Source: Arenimonas sp. SCN 70-307
Lineage (GTDB): Bacteria > Pseudomonadota > Gammaproteobacteria > Xanthomonadales > Xanthomonadaceae
Assembly (NCBI RefSeq): GCF_001724815.1
Contig: NZ_MEDO01000022.1
Span: 1 to 48,981 of the forward strand
Length of the DNA: 48,981 nt
Reading direction: 5' to 3'
The notes under the pieces were generated by a model. It did no database searches, was not told the origin of the DNA, and was given only the letters and a program-made list of their open reading frames with translations. Positions 28,352 through 45,253 of this stretch are shown piece after piece; positions within the stretch are counted from its first letter, which is position 1, and each line of letters begins with the position of its first letter. A program made the translations under genes and the position numbers.

Positions 28352-28393
28352 ATTATGGCCAAGCCGCCCGCGGGCCGGCTTGACCCGCGTCAA
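28352..28393 (-). promoter_or_regulatory. Anr/FNR-box promoter of the cco operon
   Basis: The perfect palindrome TTGACCCGCGTCAA (28380-28393) is followed, 22 nt downstream on the minus strand, by a good -10 element CATAAT (28352-28357). This is class II FNR geometry, with the box centred near -41.5. The leader to ccoN is then short (about 20 nt). Confidence 0.88.
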
Positions 28394-32869: not shown

Positions 32870-34996
<2,127 letters not shown>

Positions 34997-37389: not shown

Positions 37390-37431
37390 TTGACTCAGGT
37401 CAGTGCGACCGGGGTCCCGCGCGGCTCCAAT
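37390..37431 (+). promoter_or_regulatory. Anr/FNR-box promoter of the chorismate mutase-ubiT gene
   Basis: TTGACTCAGGTCAG (37390-37403) is followed after 22 nt by TCCAAT (37426-37431), a fair -10 element. It is 65 nt upstream of the ATG, which itself follows GGGAGGAGG. Confidence 0.78.
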
Positions 37432-37468
37432 GGCCCCGGCGCCGATCCTGGCGCCGGGAGGAGGCACG

Positions 37469-38305
37469 ATGACCCAGCTTCCGCGGGCCGTGGCGCTGCT
37501 GCGCAAAGGCATTGATGGCCTGGATGACGCGATGCTCCTGCTGCTGGCCGGCCGGCGCCGGTTGGTGGGCGGGCTGTCGGCGGTCAAGCGCCGCCATGGC
37601 TTGCCGGCGGGCGATGCGGCCCGCGAGCAGGCGGTCCTCGCCCGCGGTGACCGGCTCGCCAGGCACCTGGGCCTGCCCCCGGCGCTGGTGCGCGGGCAGC
37701 TGGCGCTCCTTATCGAGGACGGCCGGCGCGTACAGGGGCTTGCCGCCACCGCAGCGGCGGGCGGCGATGGCACTGCTTCCGCCAACACACATCCGGGAGT
37801 GACGATGGGCCATTCGAACGCGGGCCGCTTGCTGCGCTGGTTCCCGCCGCCGCATCGCTGGGCGCCGCTGGTCGCGCGCGTGCCCGCCGCATGGCAGCGC
37901 GCCCTGCTCGAGCGCGTGGTCGCGCAACTGCTCTCAGGGCCGCTGCAGGACGGCGAGCTCGGATTCCTGTGCGGCCGTCGCATCGGCATCGAGGTTCGCG
38001 ACCTCGGCTTGCGCTGGGTGCTTGGCGTCGAGGAGGGACGACTGCGCGCGCTCGACGGCGAAGCCGAAGCGAGCGTCCGCGGCACGGCAACGGACCTGCT
38101 GCTGCTTGCGAGCCGGCTCGAGGACGCGGACACGCTGTTCTTCCAGCGCCGGCTCGAGCTCACGGGCGACACGGAGCTCGGGCTGACCGCGCGCAACCTG
38201 CTCGACCGGCTGCCCTGGGAGTCGATTCCGCTGGCCGCGCGCATCGCGCTCAATCGCGCCTCCCGCGCCGCGCGAGCCGCGCGGGAAGCGCATTGCACGG
38301 GCTGA
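37469..38305 (+). CDS. ubiT: Chorismate mutase (AroQ)-UbiT fusion protein
   Basis: 278 residues. Residues 1-90 are an AroQ chorismate mutase that aligns with the E. coli P-protein domain without gaps, offset by one. The catalytic residues Arg12, Arg29, Lys40, Asp49, Arg52, Glu53 and Gln89 are kept; Ser84 of E. coli is replaced by Gly85. Residues about 125-270 are an SCP2-type lipid-binding domain ([18 protein letters not shown], then [27 protein letters not shown]), which matches UbiT. UbiT works with UbiU and UbiV in oxygen-independent ubiquinone synthesis. The linker (about 92-115) is Ala/Gly-rich. The ATG follows a strong ribosome binding site. The gene is separated from ubiUV by fabAB but shares their box type. 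Confidence 0.88.
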
Positions 38306-38355: not shown

Positions 38356-38397
38356 TTGATGCGCGTCACTCCATGACGCACATTGCGCGGCGAGACT
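38356..38397 (+). promoter_or_regulatory. Anr/FNR-box promoter of fabA-fabB
   Basis: TTGATGCGCGTCAC (38356-38369) has one mismatch to the consensus palindrome. GAGACT (38392-38397) follows after 22 nt. It is 54 nt upstream of the fabA ATG, the same as at the TonB receptor gene. Confidence 0.75.
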
Positions 38398-38423: not shown

Positions 38424-38939
38424 ATGAACATCTCCCAGTCCTTCGACCGCGCGCAGCTGCTCGAGTGCGCCAGCGGCGCCATGTTCGGCCCCGGCGGCGC
38501 GCGCCTGCCCTCCGACCCGATGCTGATGTTCGACCGCATCACGCAGATCAGCGAGAACGGCGGCAAGCACGGCAAGGGTTTCATCCGCGCCGAGCTCGAC
38601 ATCCGTCCGGACCTCTGGTTCTTCGGCTGCCATTTCACCGACGATCCGGTCATGCCGGGTTGCCTCGGGCTGGATGCGATGTGGCAGCTGGCCGGCTTCT
38701 TCCTGCCGTGGCTGGGCGAGCCGGGCCGCGGCCGCGCGCTCGGCGTGGGCCAGGTGAAGTTCACCGGCCAGGTGCTGCCCAGCGCCACCCTGGTCACCTA
38801 TGAAATCGACATCCGCCGCGTGGTGCGCGGTCGGCTGAAGATGGTGATCGCCGACGGTCGCACGCTCGTGGACGGCCGCGAGATCTACACCGCCGAAGAG
38901 CTGCGCGTCGGCCTGTTCTCCTCCACCGAAGGCATGTAA
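38424..38939 (+). CDS. fabA: 3-hydroxydecanoyl-ACP dehydratase/isomerase FabA
   Basis: 171 residues, a hot-dog fold dehydratase that also isomerises trans-2- to cis-3-decenoyl-ACP, the branch step to unsaturated fatty acids without oxygen. Active-site His70 ([12 protein letters not shown]) and Asp84 (GCLGLD) sit at the same positions as in E. coli. The start at 38424 gives the family length; an upstream ATG at 38373 would run through the leader. fabB follows 2 nt after the stop. Confidence 0.96.
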
Positions 38940-38941
38940 GC

Positions 38942-40150
38942 ATGCGGCGCGTCGTCATCACGGGCATGGGCATCGTCTCGTGCCTGGGCAACCAGCTGGA
39001 CACCGTTTCCACCGCGCTGCGCGAAGGCCGCAGCGGCATCCGCTTCGACGCCGCGGCGGCCGAAGCCGGCCTGCGCAGCCAGGTCTCCGGCGCGCCGGAG
39101 ATCGACCTGGCTGCACGCATCGACCGCAAGGCCCTGCGTTTCATGGGCGACGGCGCGGCCTTCGCGCACGTGGCCATGCAGGACGCCATCGTCGACGCGG
39201 GGCTCGGTGACGCGCAGATGCGCTCCGAGCGCACCGGCCTGTTCGCCGGCTCCGGCGGCGGCTCGACCCAGTGGCAGGTGGAAGCCGCCGACCTGCTGCG
39301 CCAGCGCGGCGTGCGCAAGGTGGGGCCGTACATGGTGCCGCGCACCATGGGTTCGACGGTCTCGGCCAACCTCGCCACGGCCTTCGGCATCCGCGGCGCC
39401 AGCTATTCCATCGCCGCCGCCTGCGCCACCTCGGCGCACTGCATCGGCGCGGCCGCCGACCTGATCCGGGCCGGCCGCCAGGACGTGATGTTCGCCGGCG
39501 GCGGCGAGGAGCTGCACTGGTCGCTGAGCCTGCAGTTCGACGCGATGGGCGCACTGTCCACCAAACACAACGAGACGCCTGCCACTGCGTCGCGGCCCTA
39601 CGACGCCGACCGCGACGGCTTCGTCATCGCCGGCGGCGGCGGCATGCTGGTGCTCGAGGACTACGAGCACGCCAGGGCGCGCGGCGCCCGCATCCACGCC
39701 GAGCTGCTGGGCTACGGCATCAGTTCCGATGGCGCCGACATGGTCGCGCCCTCGGGCGAGGGCGCGGTGCGCTGCATGAAGATGGCGATGGCCGGCCTCG
39801 ACCGTCCCATCGACTACCTCAACACCCACGGCACCTCGACGCCGCTGGGCGATATCGTCGAGCTGCGGGCGGTACGCGAGGCCTTCGGCGACACGATGCC
39901 GCCGATTTCCTCGACCAAGGCGCTCTCGGGCCACTCGCTCGGCGCCGCCAGCGTGCACGAGGCGATCTACTGCCTGCTGATGATGCGCGATCGCTTCATG
40001 GCCGGCTCGGCCCACGTCGCCAGCCTCGATCCGCAGGCCGAGGGCTTCCCGATCCTCCGCGAAAGCCGCGACGCCACGCTGCGCACGGTGATGTCCAACA
40101 GCTTCGGCTTCGGCGGCACCAACGCCTGCCTCGTCTTTGGCGCGGCGTGA
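38942..40150 (+). CDS. fabB: 3-oxoacyl-ACP synthase I FabB
   Basis: 402 residues, a condensing enzyme that elongates the cis-3-decenoyl-ACP made by FabA. The catalytic Cys161 ([10 protein letters not shown]), His296 (NTHGTST), Lys326 (STKALSG) and His331 (GHSLGA) are all present, and the thiolase fold ends with GFGGTNACL. It is cotranscribed with fabA and ends at a long perfect palindrome. Confidence 0.96.
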
Positions 40151-40208: not shown

Positions 40209-41093
40209 CTACAGGGGGGATTCGGGCAGCCCGGGCTTGCCGGGCAGTTCGTGCCAGTAGCCGTTGACCGCGCCGAGGCGGGGCGGCGGGAGTGCGGAGC
40301 GGCGGGCGAGGTCGAAATGTTCGACGACCTCCCGCATGCCTTCGTGCTGCGGGTAGAGGCGCAGCAGGCCCACGCCGAGCTGGCGCAGGCTCGTGATCTC
40401 GGGGCCGAGGTCGGTGATTTCCTCGCCCTGTACCTGGATTCCGTTGATGCGCAGGAAGGGCGTGCCCTCGCGGGTGGCCAGCGGCAGGCCGTCCGGGTGC
40501 TCGATGCAGCGGAAGCCGCAGGCGTCCTTGGGCACGTCGAAGGCGCGGGCGGTGAAACAGCGCGCCGAGTACGACAGCGGCAGCCGGCCCCAGGCGATCA
40601 CCTCGACCTCGGGTGGCGACAGACCCTGCGCGACGTGCGCCGCCAGCAGTTCCCCGATTTGCCGCAGTCCCTGCTCGACGCCCGGAACCCAGCGCCGAAG
40701 GCCGTCTTCCATCAGCATCGCCAGCGCACGGTGGTTGTACAGGTTCAGGCTGGGCCCGGCCACGAAGGCGGCGCCGGCCTCGCGGCACAGCTGCACCGCG
40801 GTGAGGTCGTTGGCCTCGATCCGGAAACCGCCGTGCGCGAGCGTGCGCTGCACCGCGTTGAGCTCGGACTCCGCTTCCACCAGCGCCAGGCTCGACAGCA
40901 CCACCTCCTTGCCGGCCGCGGCCAGTTCCTCGGCCAGCGCGATCCAGTCGCGGGTGCCGAGTTCGCGGCGCTTGCTGCACACCGTTTCGCCCAGGTAGAC
41001 CACGTCCACCGGCCAGCCGGCGGCCTCGCGGTAGAAGGCGAGCGTGCGCTCGCGCGGCCAGAAATACTGCAGGGGTCCGAGGCTGAGTTTCAT
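40209..41093 (-). CDS. ubiV: UbiV, O2-independent ubiquinone hydroxylation protein
   Basis: 294 residues, U32 peptidase-like family. Cys39, Cys179, Cys192 and Cys196 correspond to the [4Fe-4S] ligands Cys39, Cys180, Cys193 and Cys197 of E. coli UbiV. UbiV forms a complex with UbiU that hydroxylates ubiquinone precursors without oxygen, using prephenate as the oxygen donor in the described E. coli system. It starts 4 nt after the ubiU stop, so the two form one operon. Confidence 0.95.
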   Translation of the reverse strand: MKLSLGPLQYFWPRERTLAFYREAAGWPVDVVYLGETVCSKRRELGTRDWIALAEELAAAGKEVVLSSLALVEAESELNAVQRTLAHGGFRIEANDLTAVQLCREAGAAFVAGPSLNLYNHRALAMLMEDGLRRWVPGVEQGLRQIGELLAAHVAQGLSPPEVEVIAWGRLPLSYSARCFTARAFDVPKDACGFRCIEHPDGLPLATREGTPFLRINGIQVQGEEITDLGPEITSLRQLGVGLLRLYPQHEGMREVVEHFDLARRSALPPPRLGAVNGYWHELPGKPGLPESPL

Positions 41094-41097
41094 GCGG

Positions 41098-42096
41098 TCA
41101 GTGCCAGGCGCGGTGGTAGGGGCCGAGCGTGGTCTGGTGGCCCTCGGCGTGGGCCGACAGCGCCTGCTGCCATTCGGCGCGGGCCTGCCAGGTGGCCGGG
41201 TCGGCATGGTGGCGGTCGATGGCCTCGCGCCAGGTGCGGGTGACCGCCGTGACGTAGGCGACGCCGCGCTGGCGGCCCTCGATCTTCAGCGCCGCCACCC
41301 CGGCCTTCGCCAGCTGCGGCAGCAGTTCGAGTGTGTTGAGGCTGGTGGGTTCCTCGAGGGCGTGGAAGGTTTCGCCACCGACGGCGAAGCGGCCCTTGCA
41401 CACGGTCGGGTAGGCGGCCGGCTCGCCCGGCGCGTAACGGTCCATCAGCAGGCCGTTCAGGCGCACGCCGCGCTGGCCATCGGCGTGTTCCTCCCAGCGC
41501 ACGAAACGCGCCGGCGAACACACGCCGTGGCGGTTGGGCGAGGCGCCGGTGACATAGCTCGACAGCTGGCAGCGGCCTTCGACCATGATGCAAAGGCTGC
41601 CGAAGGCGAAGACCTCCAGCGGCACCGGCGAGCGCTCGCACAGCCGTTCGACCTGCTGCAGCGACAGCACCCGCGGCAGCACCGCGCGGCTGATGCCGAA
41701 ACGTTCGTGCATGTAGCGCAGCGCCGGCGCGCTGGTGGCCGAGCCCTGCACCGAAAGGTGGCGGGCCAGGTTCGGGTGCTCGCGCAGGGCGTGCTCGAGC
41801 ACCGACATCTCGGCGGCGATGATGGCGTCGCAGCCCAGTTCGGCGGCGTGGTCCACCGCGGCCTGCCAGGCGCGCAGGCGCGAGGTTTCCGGGTAGGTGT
41901 TGAGCGCCAGGTAGACCTTGCGGCCGCGCTTGTGGGCGTAGGCGATGCCGGCGCGCAGCTCGGCCTCGTCGAAATTCAGGCCGGGGAAGGCGCGGGCATT
42001 GGTCTGGTCGCGGAATCCGGCGTAGACGGCGTCGGCGCCGGCGTCGATCGCCGCGCGCAGGGCCGGCAGGTTGCCGGCGGGGCAGACCAGTTGCAT
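41098..42096 (-). CDS. ubiU: UbiU, O2-independent ubiquinone hydroxylation protein
   Basis: 332 residues, U32 family. Cys169, Cys176, Cys193 and Cys233 align with the cluster ligands of E. coli UbiU (169, 176, 193, 232). The N-terminus (MQLVCPAGNLPALRAAIDAGADAVYAG) and the GSLCIMVEGRC motif are typical. ATG at 42096 is preferred over the adjacent GTG at 42099. First gene of ubiUV; divergent from the His-rich periplasmic protein with a shared Anr-type box in between. Confidence 0.96.
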   Translation of the reverse strand: MQLVCPAGNLPALRAAIDAGADAVYAGFRDQTNARAFPGLNFDEAELRAGIAYAHKRGRKVYLALNTYPETSRLRAWQAAVDHAAELGCDAIIAAEMSVLEHALREHPNLARHLSVQGSATSAPALRYMHERFGISRAVLPRVLSLQQVERLCERSPVPLEVFAFGSLCIMVEGRCQLSSYVTGASPNRHGVCSPARFVRWEEHADGQRGVRLNGLLMDRYAPGEPAAYPTVCKGRFAVGGETFHALEEPTSLNTLELLPQLAKAGVAALKIEGRQRGVAYVTAVTRTWREAIDRHHADPATWQARAEWQQALSAHAEGHQTTLGPYHRAWH

Positions 42097-42124: not shown

Positions 42125-42194
42125 ATGCTCGGCGCAAGGCCGTGGTCCGTCATTGACCTGGGTCAGTTCGCCGGCCGGTCGGGGCGGCGAGGAT
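42125..42194. promoter_or_regulatory. Shared Anr/FNR box, two divergent promoters (ubiUV and His-rich gene)
   Basis: One box TTGACCTGGGTCAG (42153-42166) has a -10-like hexamer 22 nt away on each side: GAGCAT (42125-42130, minus strand, towards ubiU) and GAGGAT (42189-42194, plus strand). The symmetry suggests that a single bound dimer could activate both directions. Distance to the two starts is 56 and 65 nt. Confidence 0.72.
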
Positions 42195-42231: not shown

Positions 42232-42762
42232 ATGAAGCACACCGACATCGCCATCCTCGCCTTCGCCCTGGCCCTCGTACCCAGCGTTCTGGCCCTGGCC
42301 GGCGACCACGGCCACGCCAATGGCCAGGACTCCGCCGCGCAGGACCACGGCGTGGCCCACGATGCGCACGCCAGCGGCGATTCGCATGGCGCCCACGCTG
42401 ACGCCGCCGGATTCCCGGCCCGGCGCTGGGCGCCCGACGCGCCGCTGAGCCAGGGCATGCAACGCGTGCGCGCGGCGACCACGGCGCTGGCGCATGGCGG
42501 CCACGGCCACCTCGACGAGGCGCAGGTGCGCAACATCGCCGACGAACTGCAGTCGGCGGTGGAAGCGATGTTCGCCCAGTGCAGGCTCGAGCCCGAACCC
42601 GACGCGGCCCTGCATCCGCTGCTGGCGCGCGTGCTGGGCGCGGCCACCACCCTGCGCGAGCACGGCTTCGATGCCGGTGCCCTGGCGACGCTCGAGCAGG
42701 TCCTGGCCGACTATCCGCGGCTGTTCGACGACCCGGCCTGGAGCGACTCCCACAGCGACTGA
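42232..42762 (+). CDS. His-rich periplasmic protein (DnrO-like)
   Basis: 176 residues with a signal peptide ([23 protein letters not shown]). A His/Asp-rich segment ([20 protein letters not shown] and onward, residues about 24-58) is followed by a helical domain ([19 protein letters not shown] ... [19 protein letters not shown]). From memory, similar proteins near denitrification genes are annotated DnrO, without a known function. The His-rich part could bind Cu or another metal, which would fit NirK and cbb3. It is convergent with ubiD and overlaps its 3' end by 52 bp. Confidence 0.78.
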
Positions 42763-44198
42763 ACCCGGCGTTCGACCGTCGGGTCGGGCACGATCGGCTC
42801 GCTCCACGGCCGGCTGGTTTCCGCCGGCCACTTCCGGGTCGCGTCCAGGCCCAGCTTCGAGCCCAGGTTCGGCACCGGGCTGGAGAAATCGAGGTAATCG
42901 ATCGGCGTGTTTTCCACCAGCAGGCTGTCGCGCGCCGGGTCCACGCGGGTCGACAGCGCCCACAGCACCTGCGACCAGTCGCGCACGTCGATGTCATCGT
43001 CGGTGACGATGACGAACTTCGTGTAGGTGAACTGGCGAAGGTAGGACCACACGCCCATCATCATGCGCCGGGCGTGGCCGGGGTACTGCTTGCGGATCGA
43101 GACCACGGCGATGCGGTAGGAGCAGGCCTCGGGCGGCAGGAAGAAGTCCACCACCTCGGGGAAGACCTTGCGCAGGATCGGCACGAATACCTCGTTGAGC
43201 GCCGAGCTCAGCACCGAGGGTTCGTCGCCGGGCGCACGGCCCATGTAGCTGCCGTGGTAGATCGCGTCGCGGCGCAGGCGCAGGCGCTCGACCGTTAACA
43301 CCGGGAACTCGCCCTGGGCGTTGTAGTACCCGGTGTGGTCGCCGAACGGGCCCTCGAGCGCGGTGTCGCCGGGGTGGATGAAGCCTTCGAGCAGTATCTC
43401 TGCGCCGGCGGGCGCGTCGAGGCCGGTCAGTTCGCTGCGCCACACCCGCGTGCGCGAACCGCGCAGCAGGCCCGCGAACTCGTATTCCGACAGGGTGTCG
43501 GGCACCGGCGCCACCGCGGCCAGCATCGTCGCAGGGTCGGCGCCGATCGCCACCAGCACCGGGAAGGGTTTGCCCGGAAACGCGGCGCGGAAGTCGGCGA
43601 AATCCAGGGCGCCGCCGCGGTGCGGCAGCCAGCGCATGATCACGCGGTTCGGACCGATCAGCTGCTGGCGGTAGATCGCCACGTTCTGGCGCGGCTGGCG
43701 GATGCCGCGGGTGACCACCAGGCCGAAGGTGATGAGCCGGCCGGCGTCGCCGGGCCAGCAGCGCTGGATCGGCAGCGCGCCCAGGTCGATCTCGTCCCCC
43801 TCGAGCACGATGTCGTTGAAGCCGGCGTCGCGGGTGGCTTTCGGCGCCACGTGCGCCAGCTGCGCCAGCTCGGGCCAGGTGGAAAGCGCCTGGCGCAAAT
43901 TCGACGGCCAGCGTGGCTCCTTGATCGCCGCCAGCAGTTCGCCCAGTTCGCGCAGCGAGGCCAGAGGCCGGCCGCCGATGGCGCGCTCGATGCGCTCGCG
44001 GTGGCCGAACAGGTTGCCCAGCAGGGCGTGCTTGGAGCCGACCGGGTTGCGCATCAGCAGCGCCGGGCCGCCGCGCTCGAGGGCCAGCCGGCACAGGGCC
44101 GTGCTCTCGAGCTCGGGGTCCACCGGCGCGTCCACCGTGCGCAGCTGGCCGCGCGCGGCCAGGGCGTCGAGGAAGCCGCGCAGGTCGTGGTGGCTCAT
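42711..44198 (-). CDS. ubiD: 3-polyprenyl-4-hydroxybenzoate decarboxylase UbiD
   Basis: 495 residues, close to the 497 of E. coli. A prenylated-FMN-dependent decarboxylase removing the carboxyl group from octaprenyl-4-hydroxybenzoate in ubiquinone synthesis. Seen: the [26 protein letters not shown] segment, [11 protein letters not shown] (catalytic Glu), and [20 protein letters not shown]. The start overlaps the cysteine-synthase-like stop by 4 nt. Last gene of the nnrS operon, which would couple it to the low-oxygen response. Needs UbiX, not in the window. Confidence 0.95.
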
Positions 44199-45253
44199 GC
44201 GGCGGCCAGCGCCTGCCCAAGCCGCCGCTGGGCGCCGTCGAGGTCGATTTCGCGCTGCGCCAGCCAGTCGCGGTCGAACAGGCTGTCGGCATAACGTTCG
44301 CCGCGGTCGCACAGCAGGCTGACGATGGCGCCGGATTCGCCGCGTTCGCGCATGGCCGCGGCCAGGCGCAGGCAGGCGATGAAGTTGGTGCCCGAGCTGC
44401 CGCCGTAGCGACGGCCCAGCGCCTGCTCGAGCCACCAGCAGGCGGCGACGGAGTCTGCATCGTCCACTTCCTCCACCGTTTCCACGACGTCGTAGAGGAA
44501 GCCGGGCTCCACGCGGGGCCTGCCGATGCCTTCGATGAGCGTCTTTTGCGTGGCGCGGGCCGCTGGATCACGCGTGCGCCAGCCGACGGCGAAGGCGCCG
44601 CCGGTCGGTTCGGCCACGCACACCCGGGTGTCGAGCCGGCGATAGCGAAGGTAGCGGCCCAGCGTGGCCGAGGTTCCGCCGGTGCCGGCGCCGCAGACCA
44701 CCCAGGCCGGCTCGGGATGGTCCTCGCGCGCCATCTGCTCGAGGATGGACTCGGCGATGTTGTTGTTGCCGCGCCAGTCGGTGGCGCGTTCGGCCAGGCC
44801 GAACTGGTCGAGGTAGCACAGGTCGTTGGCGGCGGCGTGTTCGCGCGCCACCTGGCTCGCGTCGACGCCTGCCGGCACCAGCACGCTCTCGGCGCCGAGC
44901 GAGCGGATCAGGCGCACCTTGGCCGGCGCGGTGCAGTCCGGCATCACCGCCACGAAGCGGATATCGAGCAGGCGCGCGAACCAGGCCTCGGAGATGGCGG
45001 TGCTGCCCGACGAGGCGTCGATCGCGCCCTGGCCTTCGCGCAGCCGGCCATTGCACAGCGCGTAGAGGTAGAGCGAACGCGCGAGACGGTGCTTGAGGCT
45101 GCCGGTGGGGTGGGCGGCCTCGTCCTTGAGGTAGAAGCGGATGCCGGGGAAGGCCGGAAGGTCGAGCCGCAGCAGGTGGGTGTCGGCCGAACGCGCGGCT
45201 TCCTGGGCCACGCTGGCCAGGGCCTGCTTGAGCCAGGCGCGGCCGGCGCTCAC
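44195..45253 (-). CDS. PLP-dependent cysteine-synthase/CBS-family enzyme
   Basis: 352 residues, fold type II PLP enzyme. Lys54 ([11 protein letters not shown]) is the Schiff-base lysine. The phosphate-binding loop is [21 protein letters not shown] replaces the usual SSGNT substrate-binding motif. The region [13 protein letters not shown] is typical. Cysteine synthase itself is not implied: the loop change and the pairing with a decarboxylase suggest another beta-replacement reaction (for example one using O-acetyl- or O-phosphoserine). Both starts are GTGA/ATGA-coupled to neighbours. Confidence 0.85.

Follow-up and report, generated by a model that had tools for sequence, protein, structure and literature searches.

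The window, meaning the whole stretch of 48,981 nucleotides that was analysed, carries on its forward strand a gene in which an AroQ-type chorismate mutase (CM) domain is followed in the same reading frame by a UbiT domain of the SCP2 type. The features of the gene are as follows.

37456..37464, + strand: Shine-Dalgarno sequence of the fusion gene (GGGAGGAGG), strong by its sequence and ahead of the ATG
37469..38305, + strand: CM-UbiT fusion gene, an open reading frame of 278 amino acids plus stop
37499..37735, + strand: AroQ-type chorismate mutase domain, residues 11-89 (CM_2 3.4e-12, catalytic residues, fold)
37736..37828, + strand: variable linker (pLDDT <50 at residues 94-115, divergence)
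37795..37799, + strand: internal Shine-Dalgarno-like GGGAG, from the sequence
37805..38305, + strand: possible stand-alone UbiT of 166 amino acids from an internal ATG (survey of internal Met codons and Shine-Dalgarno sequences across loci)
37874..38221, + strand: UbiT (SCP2) domain, residues 136-251 (NF047962, 127.7 bits)

Both domains lie above curated cut-offs within the one open reading frame, which bears out the fusion that the first-pass annotation had claimed. Pfam CM_2 covers residues 11-89 (46.8 bits, cut-off 27), Pfam SCP2 (PF02036) residues 159-246 (52.4 bits, cut-off 21.3) and the NCBIfam UbiT family NF047962 residues 136-251 (127.7 bits, cut-off 46.9), while the NCBIfam CM equivalogs (PRK09239 and others) left the window's fusion below cut-off, at best 42.6 bits against 120. 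Alignment with E. coli CM likewise bore out the claimed seven of eight catalytic positions: in E. coli numbering R11, R28, K39, D48, R51, E52 and Q88 are retained, and Gly replaces S84.

The first-pass annotation had proposed a survey of other genomes and had allowed that the fusion might exist only through misassembly. A search of 299 genomes of the order at E 1e-12 gave matches in 80, which by coverage comprised 42 full fusions, matched over nearly their whole length, 37 with UbiT only (from residue 71 or later) and one with CM only (G047). Named loci were sampled as the best 80 of the 290 found, and CM and UbiT share one frame in 79 of these 80; part of the sample consists of near-duplicates (L081 and L082 belong to one genome), so that counts over the 80 are not independent. 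The near-full-length matches in the order together with the single frame at the named loci show that the fusion is not a product of chance or assembly: it is real, with AroQ CM and UbiT in frame, and misassembly or a frameshift as its origin is ruled out. Locus titles in the same sample (best 80 of 290) name Arenimonas, Lysobacter, Thermomonas, Stenotrophomonas, Pseudoxanthomonas, Luteimonas and Xanthomonas, further Rhodanobacter, Dyella, Frateuria and Dokdonella, and metagenome-assembled genomes of broader or doubtful name, one of them Erythrobacter. Dyella jiangningensis (CP007444.1) has two copies of the locus, L081 and L082. At L129 (Arenimonas daejeonensis) and L017 (genome G003) the CM and UbiT parts do not share a frame; the catalytic-residue alignment and the 20-locus scan for FNR boxes described below exclude L017, and the 80-sequence survey excludes L129. 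A fusion outside the order was also sought and rejected: 89 of 369 genomes of the class match, 85 of the 89 over the UbiT part only, and the three in which both parts are covered all belong to the window's family.

Downstream of the fusion, the window encodes two fatty acid genes and, on the opposite strand, both partners of UbiT.

38424..38939, + strand: fabA (TIGR01749 over cut-off)
38942..40150, + strand: fabB (NF005935 over cut-off)
40209..41093, - strand: ubiV (NF047965, 346.9 bits, cut-off 275)
41098..42096, - strand: ubiU (NF047963, 529.5 bits, cut-off 440)
42711..44252, - strand: UbiD-family decarboxylase gene, start approximate (TIGR00148, 470.5 bits, cut-off 244.85)

UbiV and UbiU thus both exceed their curated cut-offs in the window, where just 118 bases separate the fusion stop from fabA. 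The order fusion-fabA-fabB, then ubiV-ubiU-ubiD-type gene on the opposite strand, recurs in relatives, often with additional genes interspersed; in A. caeni (L071:4837-7331), for example, nadA (PF02445) and a frame that by eye is nadB-like lie between the fusion and fabA. A TyrA-like gene stands directly 5' of ubiU on the same strand in G006, G005 and G009, so that a second CM adjoins ubiUV; in G006 (L164:269-1318, + strand) it encodes a reversed TyrA-like protein, PDH_N then CM_2, an order checked with Pfam in L164 only.

The co-occurrence with ubiUV, another check that the first-pass annotation had proposed, was followed in 61 relatives. UbiT is over cut-off in 24 of them, and all 24 contain UbiU (at least 48% identical); G041, the one further genome whose UbiT match reaches E 1e-30, has a different U32 protein instead (34%). 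CM_2 lies directly upstream of UbiT in 21 of the 24, in one frame in 20 and split by a frame change in G003, and is not found there in G044, G053 and G060. In the order, G282, G316, G065 and G101 have UbiT with no CM match, and UbiU and UbiV lie within 20 kb; these four rule out that CM is always retained with UbiUV, and the fusion can therefore be helpful at most, not required. The reverse case is G047 (L024:1516-3063, - strand), where a stand-alone CM relic ahead of fabA has its catalytic Lys39 changed to Arg and neither UbiT over cut-off nor UbiU was found.

Relatives that have lost PheA give the strongest hint to function. Prephenate dehydratase is present in the window's genome, where PheA is a second CM source, and in 55 of the 61 relatives. 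A genome search did not find it in G013, G021 and G029 (99, 100 and 99% complete), the absence of PheA being read from draft assemblies, and in these three the fusion is the only CM_2. The second class of CM (CM_1) was ruled out as a source, with no match in any of the seven genomes searched, these three included. Chorismate synthase is present in all three, and they have no U32 proteins other than UbiU and UbiV (UbiV of G013 was seen at locus L038, not in the U32 listing). CmoA was without a match in G013 and G021, and its match in G029, at 23.6 bits, fell below the cut-off of 193.3; weak PDH_N matches (22.5-26.5 bits), considered as prephenate dehydrogenase, were assigned to the 3-hydroxyisobutyrate dehydrogenase family. 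Among the prephenate users sought in these genomes, only UbiU-UbiV was found. Two PheA-less genomes without UbiT over cut-off, G024 (85%) and G028 (99%), yielded no CM, and G017 (81%), also without the dehydratase, was set aside because its CM is only a fragment at a contig end. CM and prephenate dehydratase are one gene, so each genome needs one loss. Among the genomes examined, then, those that have lost PheA retain a CM only if they also have UbiT.

This pattern bears on two other readings of the CM domain. It could be a general back-up CM for phenylalanine and tyrosine synthesis whose join to UbiT is incidental, in keeping with its intact catalytic residues and with the dehydratase found in most of the genomes; we consider this unlikely, given that CM is retained in the three genomes without dehydratase, that none was found in the two PheA-less genomes without UbiT, and that CM and UbiT stay in frame with each other at 79 of the best 80 of 290 loci. 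Alternatively, CM might act in branch-point control, draining or sensing chorismate and so balancing precursor supply against oxygen donor, with no delivery to UbiUV. Chorismate does feed both 4-hydroxybenzoate (PMC10470549) and prephenate (PMC6599085), according to the available parts of these papers, but the PheA-less genomes need a prephenate user, of which UbiUV is the sole one found among those sought, and we regard such control as improbable.

Whether the domain could be an inactive module is addressed by its conservation. Across 80 sequences (the window and 79 others, from the best 80 of 290 loci), R11, R28, K39, R51 and E52 are invariant, Q88 is kept in 79 and D48 in 75, with N in the other five, and position S84 is A in 72, G in 7 and S in 1; the catalytic residues are thus conserved in homologues, where the first-pass annotation had considered that they might not be. 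In 32 aligned fusions the invariant CM columns are R12, D16, D19, R29, K40, R52, E53 and R59, and five of these eight are catalytic. Between the window and A. caeni, dN and dS are 0.14 and 0.76 for CM, 0.16 and 0.58 for UbiT, and 1.16 and 1.65 for the linker; against eight other loci dN ranges over 0.24-0.59 (CM), 0.21-0.33 (UbiT) and 0.94-2.59 (linker). CM dN exceeds UbiT dN in eight of the nine comparisons, in which dS is near saturation, and the CM domain, judged from these substitution rates, is under purifying selection that is weaker than on UbiT. The AlphaFold2 model of the fusion (mean pLDDT 85.6, pTM 0.63) places the CM part in the all-helical AroQ fold, 1.1 Å from E. coli CM (1ecm_A) over 85 columns with a Foldseek E of 0.016, and the top Foldseek match of the SCP2 domain model is UbiJ (6h6p). 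The conserved residues and the modelled fold are read most simply as those of an active mutase.

AroQ domains form dimers, intertwined in the E. coli enzyme, and the domain here might accordingly do no more than pair two UbiT domains. Replacement of Ser84 in 79 of the 80 sequences (from the best 80 of 290) and the looser constraint on CM than on UbiT would suit such a role. Dimerisation alone, however, needs none of the five catalytic residues that are invariant in 80 of 80, and it is the G047 relic, standing alone in a genome that gave neither UbiU nor a UbiT above cut-off, that has lost Lys39; an inactive dimerisation module is accordingly a doubtful reading, with little probability.

Regulatory sites were sought with the box model TTGAY-N4-RTCAA, allowing at most one mismatch. 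In FNR class II promoters the -10 element lies about 22-23 bp after the box. The sites in the window that concern the fusion and its neighbours are the following.

37390..37403, + strand: FNR/DNR-type box TTGAC-TCAG-GTCAG, one mismatch (pattern scan)
37426..37431, + strand: -10-like TCCAAT at a distance of 22 bp from the box, a spacing like that of class II FNR promoters (30 upstream sites aligned)
38356..38369, + strand: FNR/DNR-type box ahead of fabA (pattern scan)
42153..42166, no strand assigned: FNR/DNR-type box ahead of ubiU (pattern scan), with a -10-like GAGCAT 22 bp towards ubiU by eye

The window has 10 FNR/DNR-type boxes against 1.0 expected, the fabA and ubiU sites among them. Two boxes, at 28380 and 35110, are perfect, the latter between a divergent TonB receptor gene and a gene for a cytochrome-c-like protein (32870-34975), which may resemble a cd1-type nitrite reductase. 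Over 20 fusion loci 16 FNR-type boxes were found against 0.395 expected from shuffles, and at five of the 20 loci the scanned stretch contains no box.

Sorted by position, boxes occur upstream only in 18, in the linker only in 43, in both places in 11 and in neither in 8 of the best 80 of 290 loci. An upstream box (29 of the 80) is one within 250 nt of the CM domain, and some are far off or have no convincing -10, as at L079 and L083. Fifty distinct linker boxes are followed, at 23 bp, by a -10-like CATGAT whose A and final T never vary. Of the 54 loci among these 80 that have a linker box, 52 have an internal ATG at a distance of 43 or 46 nt from the centre of the box; the linker region of 74 of the best 80 of 290 loci contains one or more in-frame internal Met codons. 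By the class II spacing rule, a transcript from the linker promoter would begin a few nucleotides before the UbiT ATG. A Shine-Dalgarno-like sequence precedes the internal ATG in 0 of 49 loci with a linker box and an ATG so placed, versus 13 of the 20 distinct loci that have an internal ATG but no linker box (Fisher 2e-9), a comparison in which the Shine-Dalgarno words were picked after viewing the sequences, related sequences are not independent, and scoring over any internal ATG favours the group without a linker box. The window is of this second kind: it has no linker box, an upstream box at 37390, and the internal GGGAG before the ATG at 37805.

The linker box is read as the peptide motif DxxQG. 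That this is a protein motif only is unlikely, because the A and T of the -10 are invariant and because its Gln is encoded by CAA in 32 of 48 cases against 114 of 503 elsewhere in the same open reading frames. Two loci without a CM match, in G282 (L155) and G213 (L152), still have DPDQG or DLDQG ahead of UbiT, as if CM had been lost and the nested promoter kept; in G213, where CM is gone, UbiT looks decayed, and UbiU and UbiV were not found within 20 kb of the locus.

The fusion gene therefore seems, from these signals, also to yield UbiT alone, through an internal ribosome binding site in the window and a nested FNR-type promoter in most relatives. This linker promoter is the main complication. 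Since the sole FNR-type box found lies inside the linker in 43 of the best 80 of 290 loci, anaerobic induction at these loci would shift the balance towards UbiT that lacks CM, and in most loci seen it would raise UbiT more than CM-UbiT; a smaller amount of the catalytic domain than of the carrier may suffice. In a further reading little of the long form would be produced: the CM frame would simply run through a ubiT promoter, with UbiT made separately. The nested site resembling a promoter, present in 54 of the best 80 of 290 loci, would fit this, but the reading is most improbable, as linkers vary in length yet keep frame in 79 of the 80 and as the window's box and strong Shine-Dalgarno sequence stand before the whole fusion.

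We think it likely that the fusion gene encodes a bifunctional protein of O2-independent ubiquinone synthesis with a dedicated, PheA-independent source of prephenate, and that it also gives UbiT alone. The AroQ domain, with its intact and invariant catalytic residues, would convert chorismate to prephenate. UbiT proteins are carriers of lipid-linked ubiquinone precursors, and the UbiT domain would, as a member of that family, hold these. UbiU-UbiV, encoded nearby, would hydroxylate the ring, with prephenate, on the evidence of the literature, as the likely oxygen donor. The fusion would give the anaerobic Ubi complex a dedicated supply of prephenate, so that the pathway could run even without phenylalanine synthesis, while the same gene would also provide UbiT alone by the internal ribosome binding site (window) or the nested FNR-type promoter (most relatives). 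A more specific version has, in our judgement, an even chance of being right: two proteins, CM-UbiT and UbiT, come from one gene, the short form from an FNR-controlled, nearly leaderless linker promoter or, at loci that lack this promoter and have their FNR site upstream, by way of an internal ribosome binding site, and the long form makes prephenate within the complex and passes it on to UbiU-UbiV, which use it as the oxygen donor.

The link of CM to the UbiUV pathway is well supported by the invariant residues, the co-occurrence with UbiU, the retention of CM only as the fusion in PheA-less genomes and the FNR-type sites; we infer the enzyme activity, both protein forms and the delivery of prephenate 'at the site of hydroxylation' (channelling). 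The biochemical logic that the first-pass annotation had seen in the fusion thus stands as far as this link goes, and is qualified by the four relatives that keep UbiT, UbiU and UbiV without CM and by the 43 linker-only loci. Its premise that prephenate is the oxygen donor of UbiUV is stated in the available part of a 2024 review, which adds that direct evidence for catalysis by U32 enzymes is still to be shown (PMC11574389). The accessible portions of that review and of two papers also have UbiT probably binding ubiquinone intermediates, with prephenate as donor (PMC10470549, PMC6747719, PMC11574389).

Several known systems share parts of this arrangement. E. coli UbiT (YhbT) has an SCP2 domain and adjacent ubiUV, as here, and one FNR-activated and one FNR-independent promoter, according to the available text (PMC10470549). 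It has no CM domain; the FNR-type box here lies upstream of CM or within the linker. The AroQ domain of E. coli PheA and TyrA has the same fold and shares seven of eight catalytic positions with the window's CM, but in those proteins the partner of CM is an enzyme that consumes prephenate, and in the present fusion the partner is a lipid-binding accessory factor. UbiJ, the best structural match to the window's UbiT domain, is the SCP2 accessory factor of the O2-dependent pathway; unlike the present protein it has no CM and belongs to the aerobic complex (PMC10470549, available part). The U32 RNA hydroxylases TrhP and RlhA resemble UbiU and UbiV in family and in their requirement for prephenate and differ in acting on RNA (PMC6599085, available part); the U32 search of the window's genome gave only UbiU and UbiV. 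The fusion found described in this pathway is UbiT-UbiU of Zymomonas mobilis, likewise a gene fusion, which joins two Ubi proteins, while a prephenate-making enzyme is part of the present fusion only (PMC6747719, available part). In the open-access literature found, with subscription papers and preprints outside its coverage, the CM-UbiT fusion is not described.

Retention of the fusion in genomes in which, of the prephenate users sought, UbiUV alone turned up offers independent evolutionary evidence for prephenate in the pathway. With the prephenate maker physically joined to the substrate carrier, a single protein would be at hand for testing the chemistry and channelling, and the nested promoter would be a striking example of a regulatory site embedded in a reading frame that is itself conserved.
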